From Thermodesulfobacteriota bacterium (GTDB lineage: Bacteria > Desulfobacterota > Deferrisomatia > Deferrisomatales > JACRMM01): a DNA stretch of 57,813 bases. Positions within the stretch are counted from its first letter, which is position 1, and the number at the start of each line of letters is the position of its first letter. The notes under the pieces were generated by a model. The model made no database searches and was not told where the DNA came from. It saw nothing but the letters and a program-made list of their open reading frames with translations. The DNA is taken from the NCBI GenBank assembly GCA_040756475.1, contig JBFLZB010000001.1, forward strand, positions 38,690-96,502, in the 5' to 3' direction. This document shows, piece after piece, positions 2,386 through 28,904 of the stretch. A program made the translations under genes and the position numbers.

Positions 2386-3153
2386 ATGCTCGCCAAACGC
2401 ATCATCCCCTGCCTCGACGTGAACGCCGGCCGCGTGGTCAAGGGCACGAATTTCGTCAACCTCCGGGACGCGGGCGACCCGGTGGAGGTGGCCCGCATCT
2501 ACGACGAGCAGGGGGCCGACGAGCTTACCTTCCTCGACATCACGGCTTCCAGCGACGAGCGCGCCATCATCCTCGACGTGGTGCGGGCCACCGCCGAGCG
2601 GGTCTTCATGCCGCTGACCGTGGGAGGCGGGGTCCGGGAGATCGCCGACGTGCGGGGGCTCCTTTTGGCCGGTGCCGACAAGGTCTCGGTGAACACCGCC
2701 GCGGTGCACCGGCCCGAGTTCGTGGAGGAGGCCTCGCGCCGCTTCGGCTCCCAGTGCATCGTCGTGGCCATCGACGCCAAGAGGCGCGGCCCCGGCCCGG
2801 GGGAAGGGTGGGAGGTGTACACCCACGGGGGCCGGCGCCCCACCGGCATCGACGCCCTGGAGTGGGCCCGGCGCATGGAAGCCCTGGGGGCGGGCGAAAT
2901 CCTGCTCACCAGCATGGACGCCGACGGCACCAAGGACGGCTTCGACATCCCGCTCACCCGGGCGGTGTCGGAAGCGGTGGAGATCCCCGTGATCGCCTCG
3001 GGGGGCGCCGGCAACGCCGAGCACATGTGGGAGGCCCTCACTGCCGGCAAGGCCGACGCCGCCCTGGCCGCGAGCATCTTCCACTTCCGTGAGCTCACCA
3101 TCGCCGACGTCAAGCGCCTGCTGGCCGCCCGCGGCGTGCCCGTGAGGCTGTGA
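2386..3153 (+). CDS. hisF: imidazole glycerol phosphate synthase, cyclase subunit HisF
   Basis: Uses ammonia from HisH to convert PRFAR to imidazole-glycerol phosphate and AICAR. The 255-residue TIM barrel begins [20 protein letters not shown], the family's conserved start with the catalytic Asp in CLDV. The second catalytic Asp is in [11 protein letters not shown], and the phosphate loops [12 protein letters not shown] and [10 protein letters not shown] are present. The ATG at 2386 is supported by homology; the frame extends upstream only through low-complexity spacer. It ends 80 bp before hisE. Confidence 0.96.
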
Positions 3154-3187
3154 CGGGCGGGTGAAGGGTGACGGGTGAGATCCGACC

Positions 3188-3209
3188 GATCCGACCGATC
3201 GGTCCGAAA
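3188..3209 (+). repeat. 22-bp core element, copy 2
   Basis: Identical to 784-805. It is flanked on the left by degenerate GGGTGAC units and on the right by AACGGACAAC reaching the hisE start at 3234, so the whole composite spacer of hisB-hisH is recapitulated in shorter form. Confidence 0.8.
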
Positions 3210-3233
3210 ACACAACAGACAACGGACAACCCC

Positions 3234-3581
3234 ATGCCCATCCTCGACCGCATCTACCACGTCATCCTCGACCGGAAGGCGAACCCCCAGCCCGACTCCT
3301 ACGTGTGCCGGCTCCTGGGCAAGGGGGAGGACAAGATCCTCCAGAAGGTGGGGGAGGAGGCGGTGGAGACGATCCTGGCCGCCAAGTCCGGGGACGAGGA
3401 CGCCCTGGTCTACGAGCTCGCCGACCTTGCCTTCCACTGCCTGGTGCTCCTGGGCGCCCGCGGCATTCCGCCCGACCGGGTCGCCCGGGAGCTGGAGCGC
3501 CGCTTCGGCACCTCGGGGGTGGCCGAGAAGGCGAGCCGCGGAGGTGCTGGCCACCGAGAAGAAGACCCCTCGACAGGATGA
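3234..3581 (+). CDS. hisE: phosphoribosyl-ATP pyrophosphatase HisE
   Basis: Hydrolyses phosphoribosyl-ATP to phosphoribosyl-AMP, an early step of the histidine pathway. The 115-residue product is a stand-alone HisE (MazG-like all-alpha fold) with [15 protein letters not shown] and [16 protein letters not shown] carrying the acidic metal-binding helices. HisI, the next enzyme, is not fused to it and is not found in the window. The last codons overlap an ACAGGATG repeat that also supplies the stop codon. It is the last clear his gene of the cluster. Confidence 0.94.
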
Positions 3582-3665
3582 CAGGATGGACAGGATGGGG
3601 CGGATCGGAGAGGGCGCCCTCTTTCCTCTTCCGGTCCCTATCCTATGTATCCTGTCATCCTGTCC
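3572..3665. repeat. inverted repeat after hisE
   Basis: The left arm (3572-3587, two tandem ACAGGATG-type units) is the exact 16-bp reverse complement of part of the right arm (3649-3665). The 61-bp spacer is long for an intrinsic terminator, although it may still act as one. The hisE stop codon lies inside the left arm. Confidence 0.55.
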
Positions 3666-3713
3666 ACCGTACTCCCCGCACCTCGTACCTAGCTCCCGCA
3701 CGGAGTCCTTCAA

Positions 3714-19199: not shown

Positions 19200-19247
19200 G
19201 TGCTCCCTGCCCGTCACGTGGTCTTCTCCCTGGTACCCCTCCTTGAA

Positions 19248-19319
19248 ACCTATGGGACCTATGGGACCTATGGGACCTATGGGACCTATGGGACCTATGG
19301 GACCTATGGGACCTATGGG
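19248..19319 (+). repeat. ACCTATGGG nonamer, eight perfect copies
   Basis: Eight identical 9-bp units run head to tail. Each contains an ATG, and all eight ATGs are in frame with the downstream hydrolase because the unit is a multiple of three; translated, the array reads as Met-Gly-Pro repeats. Copy number could change without breaking frame. The complementary orientation occurs at 54-89. Confidence 0.9.
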
Positions 19320-19356
19320 AGAAAACCCCGTCACCCGTCACCCGTTACCTCCGCCC

Positions 19357-26091: not shown

Positions 26092-26511
26092 CCTCACTCC
26101 TCCTGATCCAAGTGCAAGAGAGTCGGGGCGCCCCCGGAGCGGGCGGTGCCCCGCAATCGCCCTGTTCTTGGTGCTTCCGGTGAATCTGCCTCCCTCTGGC
26201 TGGGGTTGCCGTGGAGATACGCCCCCGGCGGTGAGGTCTCACGTTGCTATCCCTTCGTCAAGTCGTGGAAGGGCCTTTAGAAAAAGCAAAAGAATTCGGG
26301 AATCTCGAATTGTTATTCGATATAAGTTTTTTGAGTTATGGTTTTGTAACCCGTGTAATGGCTATTTCTTCTAGAAAACTTCGATGTTGTTGTCGAATTT
26401 TCTTAAAGTCGGCGAATTCTAGTCCGAAGAGGGGGGTAGAGGTCGTGGACCTTGCGGTTTGGGACAGGGGAGGAGTTCGAGTTTCTTGACCAGATGCAGG
26501 AGGTGTAAGAG
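26092..26511. other. divergent regulatory region with AT-rich core
   Basis: 420 bp between the cytochrome operon and the CX4CH cytochrome. By direct count 26281-26400 is 38 of 120 G or C (32 percent), against roughly 70 percent around it. It contains promoter candidates for both directions. No c-di-GMP (GEMM) or other riboswitch core was recognised. Confidence 0.7.
26331..26359 (+). promoter_or_regulatory. sigma-70-like promoter candidate for CX4CH cytochrome and chemoreceptor
   Basis: TTGAGT (26331-26336) and TGTAAT (26354-26359) are 17 bp apart inside the AT-rich core. The untranslated leader would be about 145 nt. On the other strand TTACAA/TTATAT with 18-bp spacing overlaps this site. 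Confidence 0.45.
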
Positions 26512-26880
26512 ATGACACGATCGACCCGAATTGCTGCCGCCGTTTGTGCCGCTTGCCTGATCGCCCTTACGGCCCACGCGGGGCTGAAGGTGATCGGAGA
26601 GGGAGCCGACCGCCGGTTCGACCCGGCGCAGTTTCCCCCCGAATACCAGGCGAGCTACAAGTTAATGGAGGCCCGGTGCAACGTGGCCGACTGCCACGAC
26701 TTCCAGCGCACGGTCGACGCCATCGCCACGGGGGTCGCCACCGTGACCAACACTCCCTTCGACAAGGCGGCCGCCAAAGCCTACGGCGTGAAGATGATGC
26801 GCATGCCCAACTCCGGCATCGACAAGGCGGAGGCAAAGCAACTCGTCGAACTCATGTACTACATGATCGACCAGAGGTGA
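26512..26880 (+). CDS. small exported monoheme cytochrome with CX4CH motif
   Basis: A 122-residue protein with signal peptide [23 protein letters not shown]. The only heme-like site is [12 protein letters not shown]56, C61, H62 with four residues between the cysteines. MRMPNSGI later in the chain could provide the Met distal ligand, and the C-terminal helix [15 protein letters not shown] resembles the last helix of class I cytochromes c. This order (Cys-Cys-His, Met loop, C-terminal helix) supports a small cytochrome c despite the odd spacing. The SD is AGGAGG at 26499-26504. It lies 5 bp before the chemoreceptor gene and divergent from the multiheme cytochrome. Confidence 0.72.
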
Positions 26881-26885
26881 TTGCC

Positions 26886-28904
26886 ATGCGCCGTGCGAAA
26901 CGCACGCTGGGGATGCGAACCAAGCTGTTCGTCGCGGGGCTCGCGGCAGTGCTTCTGGCCTCCCTGTCTCTCGGGATTTACGCTCTGAGACGGGGGGAGG
27001 AAGCGATCCTGACCTCCGTGGAGGCCCAACTGGCGGAAGACGCTCGGCGCGCCTCCCAGCGCATCGTGGAGGTGATTGACGACAGCGCCGGCGACCTCTC
27101 CATCTGGGCGCGCCTCGACGTGGCACCACAGACGCTGGACAACGAGGCCCCGAAATTCTTCGTCGAGTTCGCCAGGCAGAGCGTCATGCAAAAGGGAATC
27201 TACGCGCACATGGTGCTGGCGCTTCCCGACGGCACTCTGTTCGCGATGAACGAGGTGGACCGGGACGGGGAGGCCATCGCAACCCACCCCCTGCCCCGGG
27301 CCTCCTTCGGTGATCAGGAGTGGTTCCGGACCGCCCTCGGGTCCGCCCAGGTGACCCTGGCCGGACCCCTGGTGCCCGAGGCCCTGGTGAAGGCGGTCAG
27401 GGATGGCGCCCCGGTGGGGCGTGAACTGCTCCTCAGCCACCCGGTGCTCGACATCATGGACGACACCGTGGGCCTGTGGATATCGGGCCTGGACTGGTCC
27501 TGGTTCGGGCAGTACCTGGACCACCTGGTGAGTCGAGAGGACGGACGGGTCAACCGATTTCCCCTGCTGCTGGACGGTGCCGGAGAGGTCATCGGTACCG
27601 GCCCCGCGGCTGCTCTGGGGCGGGAGGCGGCAGGCGCCTTCGCAGACAGGCTCGCAGGCAGCCCGGGGGGAGTTCGGGAATTCGAACTCGACGGCCGGCG
27701 GTATTTCGGGGTCGCCGCGGAGGTGAGGCCCGAGCGGATTGCCGATTTCCCCGGATGGCGCATCGCCGTGGTACAAGATCGCGCGGCGGCCCTGGCGCCG
27801 GTGGCGCGGTTCCGCAATCGGGTCATCGGGGTGGGGGTAGCGGTTTCCATCGCGATCTCGGCGATGTTGCTGCTTGCCTTGCAGCGGGCGGTGCAGCAGG
27901 TGACGCGGCCGCTGATGGACCTGGGGCACAGCATCCAGAGAATGGGAGAGGGTGACCTGTCGGTGCGGGTGGCGGCGGCCTCCGATCCCGAGATGGCACG
28001 TTTGGCGGAGGCCTTCAACGAAACCGTGGGGGTGCTGGACACGGCCATCGGGGAGGTGGAGACCACCTCGAAGGGGGTGCGCCGCTCGGTGCAGGCCGTA
28101 ACCTCGGCCATCGAAAACTTCGGCTCCCAGGAGAAGGACCTCTCTGGAGCCACGGCTTCCGCGGCGGCGGCGAGCCAGCAGATGGCCGCGTCCGTGGAGC
28201 ATGTGGCGGCCACCTGCAATGACCTGGAGCAGATGGCCTGCGAGTCGAAGGACCTGGCGGGGGACGGCGAGCACCGAATGGACGAGTCGCGCAACGCGGT
28301 CACCGAGATGGTCGAGGCCATCGACGGGGTGATTGGGGCCATGGAAAAACTCAACAGCCACATGGACGGCATCCGGGGGATCTCGGGGAGCATCGAGGAC
28401 ATCGCGGACCTCACCAACCTGCTGGCGCTGAATGCCGCCATCGAAGCGGCCAGGGCGGGGGAGCACGGCCGAGGGTTCGCCGTGGTGGCATCCGAGGTCA
28501 AGAAACTCGCCGAACAGAGTTCCCGGGCCACCCGGCAGATCCTCACCCTGGTCAAGGAGGTGCGGGAGGTCTCCAAGGAGGTCTCGGAGCGGGTCGACGC
28601 GGCACGGGAGCGGTCCCGAATGGGGCTCGACACCACGGGGCAGGCCACCGAAGCGCTGCGGCGCATCCGCGCCGCCACCGAGAACACCACCGCCCGCATC
28701 CTCGAGATCGCCACCTCCATGGAGGAGCAGAGCCGGGCCGCCCCCGAGGTGCCCCGCCTGATCGCCCGGGTGGAAGAGCTGCTGGTCAATACCAAGAACG
28801 ACCTCGGACAGGCGTCGGAGGAGGTGCTCCACCTCTCCGAAGCCAGCGTGAGGCTCGACGCCCTGCTGGAGCGCTTCCACCGCTCGGGCTCTGCGCCCTC
28901 TTAG
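26886..28904 (+). CDS. methyl-accepting chemotaxis protein with periplasmic sensor domain
   Basis: A 672-residue transmembrane chemoreceptor. TM1 is near residues 12-34 and TM2 near 315-338; the 280-residue periplasmic region between them looks like a double Cache/CHASE4-type sensor ([20 protein letters not shown]). HAMP follows ([20 protein letters not shown]), then the signalling domain with the highly conserved hairpin tip [20 protein letters not shown]. No CheB/CheR-binding pentapeptide is seen at the C-terminus. It starts 5 bp after the CX4CH cytochrome stop with GAGGTGATT as SD, so the two are co-translated. It has no heme motif of its own; redox or electron-acceptor taxis is a hypothesis. 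Confidence 0.92.

Follow-up and report, generated by a model that had tools for sequence, protein, structure and literature searches.

A CX4CH monoheme cytochrome encoded beside a chemoreceptor and a Cyc2-like conduit in Deferrisomatales: a possible redox-sensing pair

How metal-respiring bacteria locate insoluble electron acceptors is an open question. In Shewanella, a Cache-domain MCP and genes of extracellular electron transfer are both required for gathering at insoluble acceptors (PMC5789149). This congregation (Mtr/CymA) combines a Cache-type MCP with outer-membrane electron transfer, as does the locus described here; yet the passages of PMC5789149 that we consulted name no dedicated cytochrome partner co-encoded with the MCP, and the cue proposed there is the proton motive force or H+. 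A closer link between heme and receptor is seen in DcrA, GSU0582, and GSU0935, in which periplasmic heme c is likewise tied to an MCP and redox sensing was proposed (PMC8396549). In these proteins, however, the heme lies within the sensor domain of the receptor, whereas in our locus the heme protein is encoded by a separate gene; the heme-c redox receptors that we found described in the literature carry their own cofactor. The bipartite energy-taxis receptor CetA/CetB divides sensing and the membrane MCP between two co-transcribed proteins, according to PMC3558505, and in this it resembles the pair proposed here, although CetB is a PAS-domain protein and the partner in our locus is an exported cytochrome. 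No cytochrome–chemoreceptor pair of such a kind was found in our literature search, which also took in Cyc2 together with chemotaxis and was largely limited to openly available journals. If the proposal holds, a pair tied to a Cyc2-like conduit would provide a concrete link from outer-membrane electron flux to motility. In this paper we looked at the cytochrome, the receptor and the conduit genes in one stretch of 57,813 nucleotides from a Deferrisomatales genome, which we call the window, and followed their homologues through 395 genomes of the phylum.

The cytochrome gene (26512..26880, + strand) is an open reading frame with an ATG start and a TGA stop, of which 26880 is the last base, and it encodes a predicted exported, monoheme, class I-like cytochrome of 122 amino acids. 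The protein contains a single hydrophobic stretch (residues 5-29), which is compatible with a signal peptide; a probable Sec signal peptide covers residues 1-23 (26512..26580, + strand) and ends in AHA, with the cleavage site placed by eye. The heme-attachment site CNVADCH (CX4CH; residues 56-62; 26677..26697, + strand) is supported by the sequence and by the alignment of homologues, and it is the sole CXnCH site when n is scanned from 1 to 15. The mature protein contains only two Cys and one His, and any CX2-6CH arises by chance in 0.1% of its composition-preserving shuffles. The first-pass annotation had described an exported protein with CNVADCH as its only heme-like site, and this description was confirmed, with one leader and one CXnCH site. 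It had also pointed to a Met-loop; here we found Met95 (26794..26796, + strand) to be invariant in 18 of 18 homologues, which makes it a candidate distal axial ligand. A signal peptide together with a single CXnCH site is what is expected of class I c-type cytochromes, with the difference that the spacing is CX4 and not CX2.

Profile and structural comparisons give a similar, though faint, picture. The only Pfam match of the window cytochrome is PF10643, which stays below threshold (E 0.021, 14.8 bits against a cut-off of 27.1), and among the 18 family members weak profile matches are found to Cytochrome_CBB3 in six, to c551 in three and to Cytochrom_C in two. The AlphaFold model is weak (mean pLDDT 61.6) and shows helices at residues 43-55 and 105-121. 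Foldseek returned nothing at E <= 0.001 with this model, while cytochrome c domains make up five of the six VIA rows, with a best Z of 3.5. The best aligned chain by VIA is PDB 3a9f, the C-terminal domain of Chlorobium cytochrome cz (c-551), with Z 3.5, rmsd 3.7 and 63 aligned residues, below every significance threshold; the same domain is the best cytochrome match by sequence (E 0.44), but it carries the canonical CX2CH where the window cytochrome has CX4CH. Based on these sequence and model data, the protein probably folds as a class I cytochrome.

The receptor gene (26886..28904, + strand) has its ATG at 26886, so that the 5 bp spacing from the cytochrome stop, reported in the first-pass annotation, is correct. 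It encodes a transmembrane chemoreceptor of 672 amino acids with the order TM1, dCache-like periplasmic domain, TM2, HAMP and MCP signalling domain. The HAMP and MCPsignal matches are above the Pfam cut-offs and, together with two transmembrane segments (hydrophobic stretches at residues 12-35 and 311-336), they identify the protein as an MCP. The dCache_1 match is sub-threshold (E 3.7e-6, 27.1 bits against a cut-off of 45) and three orthologues of the receptor show no dCache match at E <= 1e-4. The only Cys residues of the receptor are Cys444 and Cys452, both on the cytoplasmic side, and no CXnCH was found when the protein was scanned for it. Heme-c chemoreceptors of the DcrA and GSU0935 type have a CXXCH inside the periplasmic domain; with no Cys in its own periplasmic domain, the receptor cannot belong to them.

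The sensor domain of this receptor (residues 1-309) is present in five of the 395 phylum genomes, one copy in each (G000, G001, G002, G004, and G010), and in all five it is encoded directly downstream of a cytochrome family member with CX4CH or CX6CH. In G002 they lie on different contigs, the ends of which overlap within the cytochrome gene with two base differences, and the adjacency there is deduced from these two overlapping ends. The gap between cytochrome and receptor is 5 bp in the window, 4 bp in G001 and G002 and 17 bp in G004 and G010; gaps of 4-17 bp in all five suggest that the two proteins are co-translated. The first-pass annotation had suggested that the receptor might read the redox state of the cytochrome, and had made a conserved gene pairing in relatives one of the points on which this depends; the pairing does recur, which rules out one peculiar to a single genome. 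The 14 genomes that carry the cytochrome family encode 10-30 receptors each, so chance neighbours should be rare, although the shared ancestry of these genomes means that the cases are not independent. A natural fusion of cytochrome and receptor was not seen among the members examined; one candidate, a 639-aa open frame in G008, was dropped since translation gave a cytochrome of normal length that ends in a stop codon of its own, with further genes behind it. Two observations can be added on these loci. The G004 receptor (L019:9538-11497, + strand) gives a tblastn match split over two frames, as a frameshift would produce; the genome is a single contig. In L015 the region downstream of the cytochrome contains an extended series of peptide repeats (CSTPFGIVDPN / VLNAFRHRRSQQ) that resembles a CRISPR-type array read as protein.

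On the other side of a divergent intergenic region of 420 bp (26092..26511), in which a sigma-70 promoter scan gave no sites, are two genes on the - strand that may form an outer-membrane conduit. P0003 (23389..26091, - strand) is a lipoprotein-like multiheme cytochrome with a match to MtrC/MtrF domain II/IV. Its PF22113 match (51.8 bits against a cut-off of 30) and its VAAC lipobox agree with MtrC/MtrF proteins, and by sequence we consider it an MtrC-like lipoprotein cytochrome, putatively of the outer membrane. It contains 14 CH sites, of which 12 are CX2CH, one is CX3CH and one is CX1CH. The CX1CH is the first heme-like site (CSCH); it reads CGCH in the G002 homologue, and the G001 homologue contains no CX1CH. 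A spacing of one residue would be unusual for heme c. Homologous multiheme genes are near in G001 and G002, and more distant homologues are found in G035, G072, and G287.

P0004 (22140..23387, - strand) is a 415 amino acid Cyc2-like fused monoheme cytochrome-porin with an N-terminal CTTCH and a C-terminal Phe. As in Cyc2, there is one N-terminal CXXCH, and the length exceeds the minimum of 365 residues expected of Cyc2. However, the protein departs from both Cyc2 motifs: AXPXFAR[Q/K][T/Y] upstream of the CXXCH, as described in PMC8406198, is replaced by AIAAWTREY, and PXL shortly after it by PHR. Because of these departures we name the window porin Cyc2-like only. The first motif is exact in the porin homologues of G306 and G268 (L047, L048), and PXL is found as PEL in those of G035, G072, and G287 (L022, L044, L045). 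P0004 has no Pfam, NCBIfam or PDB sequence match, and its structure model, made from two sequences (mean pLDDT 30.3), shows nothing on a 16-stranded barrel. Elsewhere in the window, at 19243-19330, a short tandem repeat that reads MGPMGPMGP in one frame and TYGTYG in another marks the start of a 359-aa open reading frame.

The porin profile detects 34 of the 395 genomes at E <= 1e-10, with 11 strong matches (E below 1e-160) and the next at 1e-53. The profile was built from 11 rows that are among these 11 strong matches, and the gap in score therefore arises in part from how the profile was made; what counts is that the search added no other genome to the group. In all 11 genomes with a strong homologue the cytochrome is found in the same cluster as the porin. 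The multiheme and porin genes are divergent from the cytochrome in the window and in line with it in relatives; with respect to the porin, the cytochrome is directly downstream in eight genomes, beyond the multiheme gene in G001 and divergent in G000 and G002.

A profile search of the phylum finds the cytochrome family in 14 of 395 genomes, including 6 of the 12 genomes of the order Deferrisomatales. We aligned 18 members, and an extra 42-aa fragment from G002 was treated as the end of one of them. One match, in G025 (E 0.009, L008/L024), was dropped as it has no CXnCH aligned to the family site and disappears with the profile. An MCP or a sensor kinase is encoded within two genes of 13 of the 18 members (8/8 in Deferrisomatales and 5/10 outside). 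The five others are both G035 copies, G159, G206 and the second G287 copy, and these indicate that the cytochrome also works without a linked receptor.

The sensors near the cytochrome are of different kinds. In G004, G008, and G010, which belong to one family, another receptor is just upstream of the porin. Outside Deferrisomatales a second receptor type is linked to the cytochrome. In G361, where its sensor is of the helical 4HB type, it lies 83 bp downstream of a CX2CH member; it is found one gene away from the cytochrome in G072 and G287, with a PBP_like_2 gene in between (recognized by Pfam in G072 and by a similar sequence start in G287), and in divergent orientation beside the porin in G268 and G306. 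The sensor of this second type gives nine matches in seven genomes: five are inside the cytochrome module, two are directly downstream of a multiheme cytochrome, and the other two (L092, L093) have short flanks without a cytochrome, which argues against a strict rule. In L094 and L095 the gene immediately in front of a paralogue of this second type is a multiheme cytochrome (about 2460-3676, - strand) with Cytochrome_cB and MtrC-like matches, and the second receptor family may be cytochrome-linked in general. Sensor kinases are also found beside the family. The second G002 copy (CX4CH) overlaps with its start (ATGA) the end of a hybrid kinase (L018:3163-6315, - strand) with Tll0287-like, PAS, HisKA, HATPase and receiver domains, and the second G001 copy is 164 bp behind a HisKA/receiver hybrid kinase.

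The genes themselves, the conservation of the heme residues and of the gene linkage between cytochrome, porin and receptors, and the presence of flagellin and CheA are observed. For a mechanism we suggest, with a probability of about 0.5, that this locus serves an extracellular electron-transfer conduit as its sensing branch, in which the redox state of the cytochrome is relayed by the receptor for redox or energy taxis. The Cyc2-like porin and the MtrC-like lipoprotein cytochrome would pass electrons across the outer membrane, to an outside acceptor or from an outside donor, and the small CX4CH cytochrome would be their periplasmic monoheme partner, with a reduction level that tracks the electron traffic of the conduit. 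The receptor, translated with the cytochrome and without a heme of its own, would have its dCache-like domain dock or otherwise couple to the cytochrome, and would turn the supply of electron acceptor into redox or energy taxis. In this way a dedicated cytochrome partner would make up for what the receptor lacks, as CetB does for CetA (PMC3558505). Covalent heme, ligation by Met95, docking, the direction of electron flow and the resulting behaviour are all steps that we infer.

Another option, quite possible although we hold it at less than even odds, is that the cytochrome does no more than carry electrons through the periplasm for the Cyc2-like conduit, and that a co-regulated receptor uses its dCache-like domain to detect some unrelated soluble ligand. 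Gene linkage is also expected from co-regulation alone, which is a counterpoint to docking, and the linkage of the cytochrome to the porin is as strong as that to the receptor and persists in G035, which lacks the receptor. Cache domains have been regarded as cofactor-free ligand binders (PMC12889525), and the periplasmic binding protein gene between cytochrome and receptor in G072 and G287 also fits a soluble ligand. Yet G361 pairs the cytochrome with a receptor in a genome that shows no porin match at E <= 1e-10, and two unrelated types of receptor sensor, as well as two hybrid kinases, are linked to one and the same cytochrome family. It is this G361 pair and the exchange of receptors and kinases beside the cytochrome that tilt our judgement toward the sensing branch rather than the carrier alone.

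For a sensing branch that ends in taxis, the motility genes are also of interest. Flagellin is found in 12 of the 14 genomes and the CheA dimerization domain in all 14, and the genome of the window has both. G072 and G287 have a receptor but no flagellin match, and in these two the receptor probably acts on something other than swimming. Fe(III) reduction by cultivated Deferrisoma is described in PMC9769843 and PMC6137239.

An improbable third option would make the cytochrome a sensor in its own right, of a gas or a ligand (such as NO at a labile Met95 site), that signals to the receptor and is not a redox carrier. Heme-c Cache domains fused to signalling modules act as NO sensors (PMC12889525), and one family member is coupled to the kinase with a Tll0287-like domain. 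However, Met95 is invariant in all 18 members, together with Cys56, Cys61, His62, and Arg97, and the tight linkage to an electron conduit suits electron transfer better.

The heme loop itself differs in width across the family. It is CX4 in three members and CX6 in five, all eight inside Deferrisomatales, and CX2 at the same alignment position in all 10 members outside this order. In the tree one branch, with support of 98/99, divides the CX2 members from the widened-loop members, which indicates one change. Since distant members carry the canonical CX2CH at the same place, CX4CH can be considered a widened heme site; a chance motif is ruled out by the invariant residues in the homologues and by the low shuffle rate. 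Concerning heme attachment, ResB, which belongs to the CcsBA system, occurs in each of the 12 genomes tested and CcmE in six of the 12, in CX2CH as well as CX4/6CH genomes. CcmE was thus discarded as the cause of the wide loop, as its presence is unrelated to loop width, and these gene contents suggest that the ordinary heme-attachment machinery probably accepts wide loops. CX4CH is a known heme c spacing and is counted as such in PMC10734462; for CX6CH no report was found in a literature search that used plain spellings, without brackets or subscripts, and was largely limited to openly available journals. That heme is no longer attached covalently at the widened CX4CH/CX6CH sites, and the protein is a degenerate cytochrome or metal binder, would fit the loss of the canonical spacing in 8/8 Deferrisomatales members but is very unlikely given that both Cys, the His and Met95 are kept in every member, all eight widened ones included, that ResB is present throughout the genomes tested and that CX4CH is counted as a heme c spacing in PMC10734462.

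More tentatively, the sensing branch can be described as a redox form of binding-protein-dependent chemoreception. A cofactor-free receptor would read an exchangeable periplasmic cytochrome of the conduit, so that the electron load of extracellular respiration would guide the cell, and the heme loop of this cytochrome would have been widened in two-residue steps from CX2CH to CX4CH and CX6CH. Such a CX2/CX4/CX6 series within one family is a natural test of the tolerance of the heme-attachment machinery. One further copy of the family can be noted: G287 encodes a second CX2CH member (L045:11685-12041, - strand), about 4.6 kb from the first, and the gene behind it likewise resembles the periplasmic binding protein-like gene next to the first.
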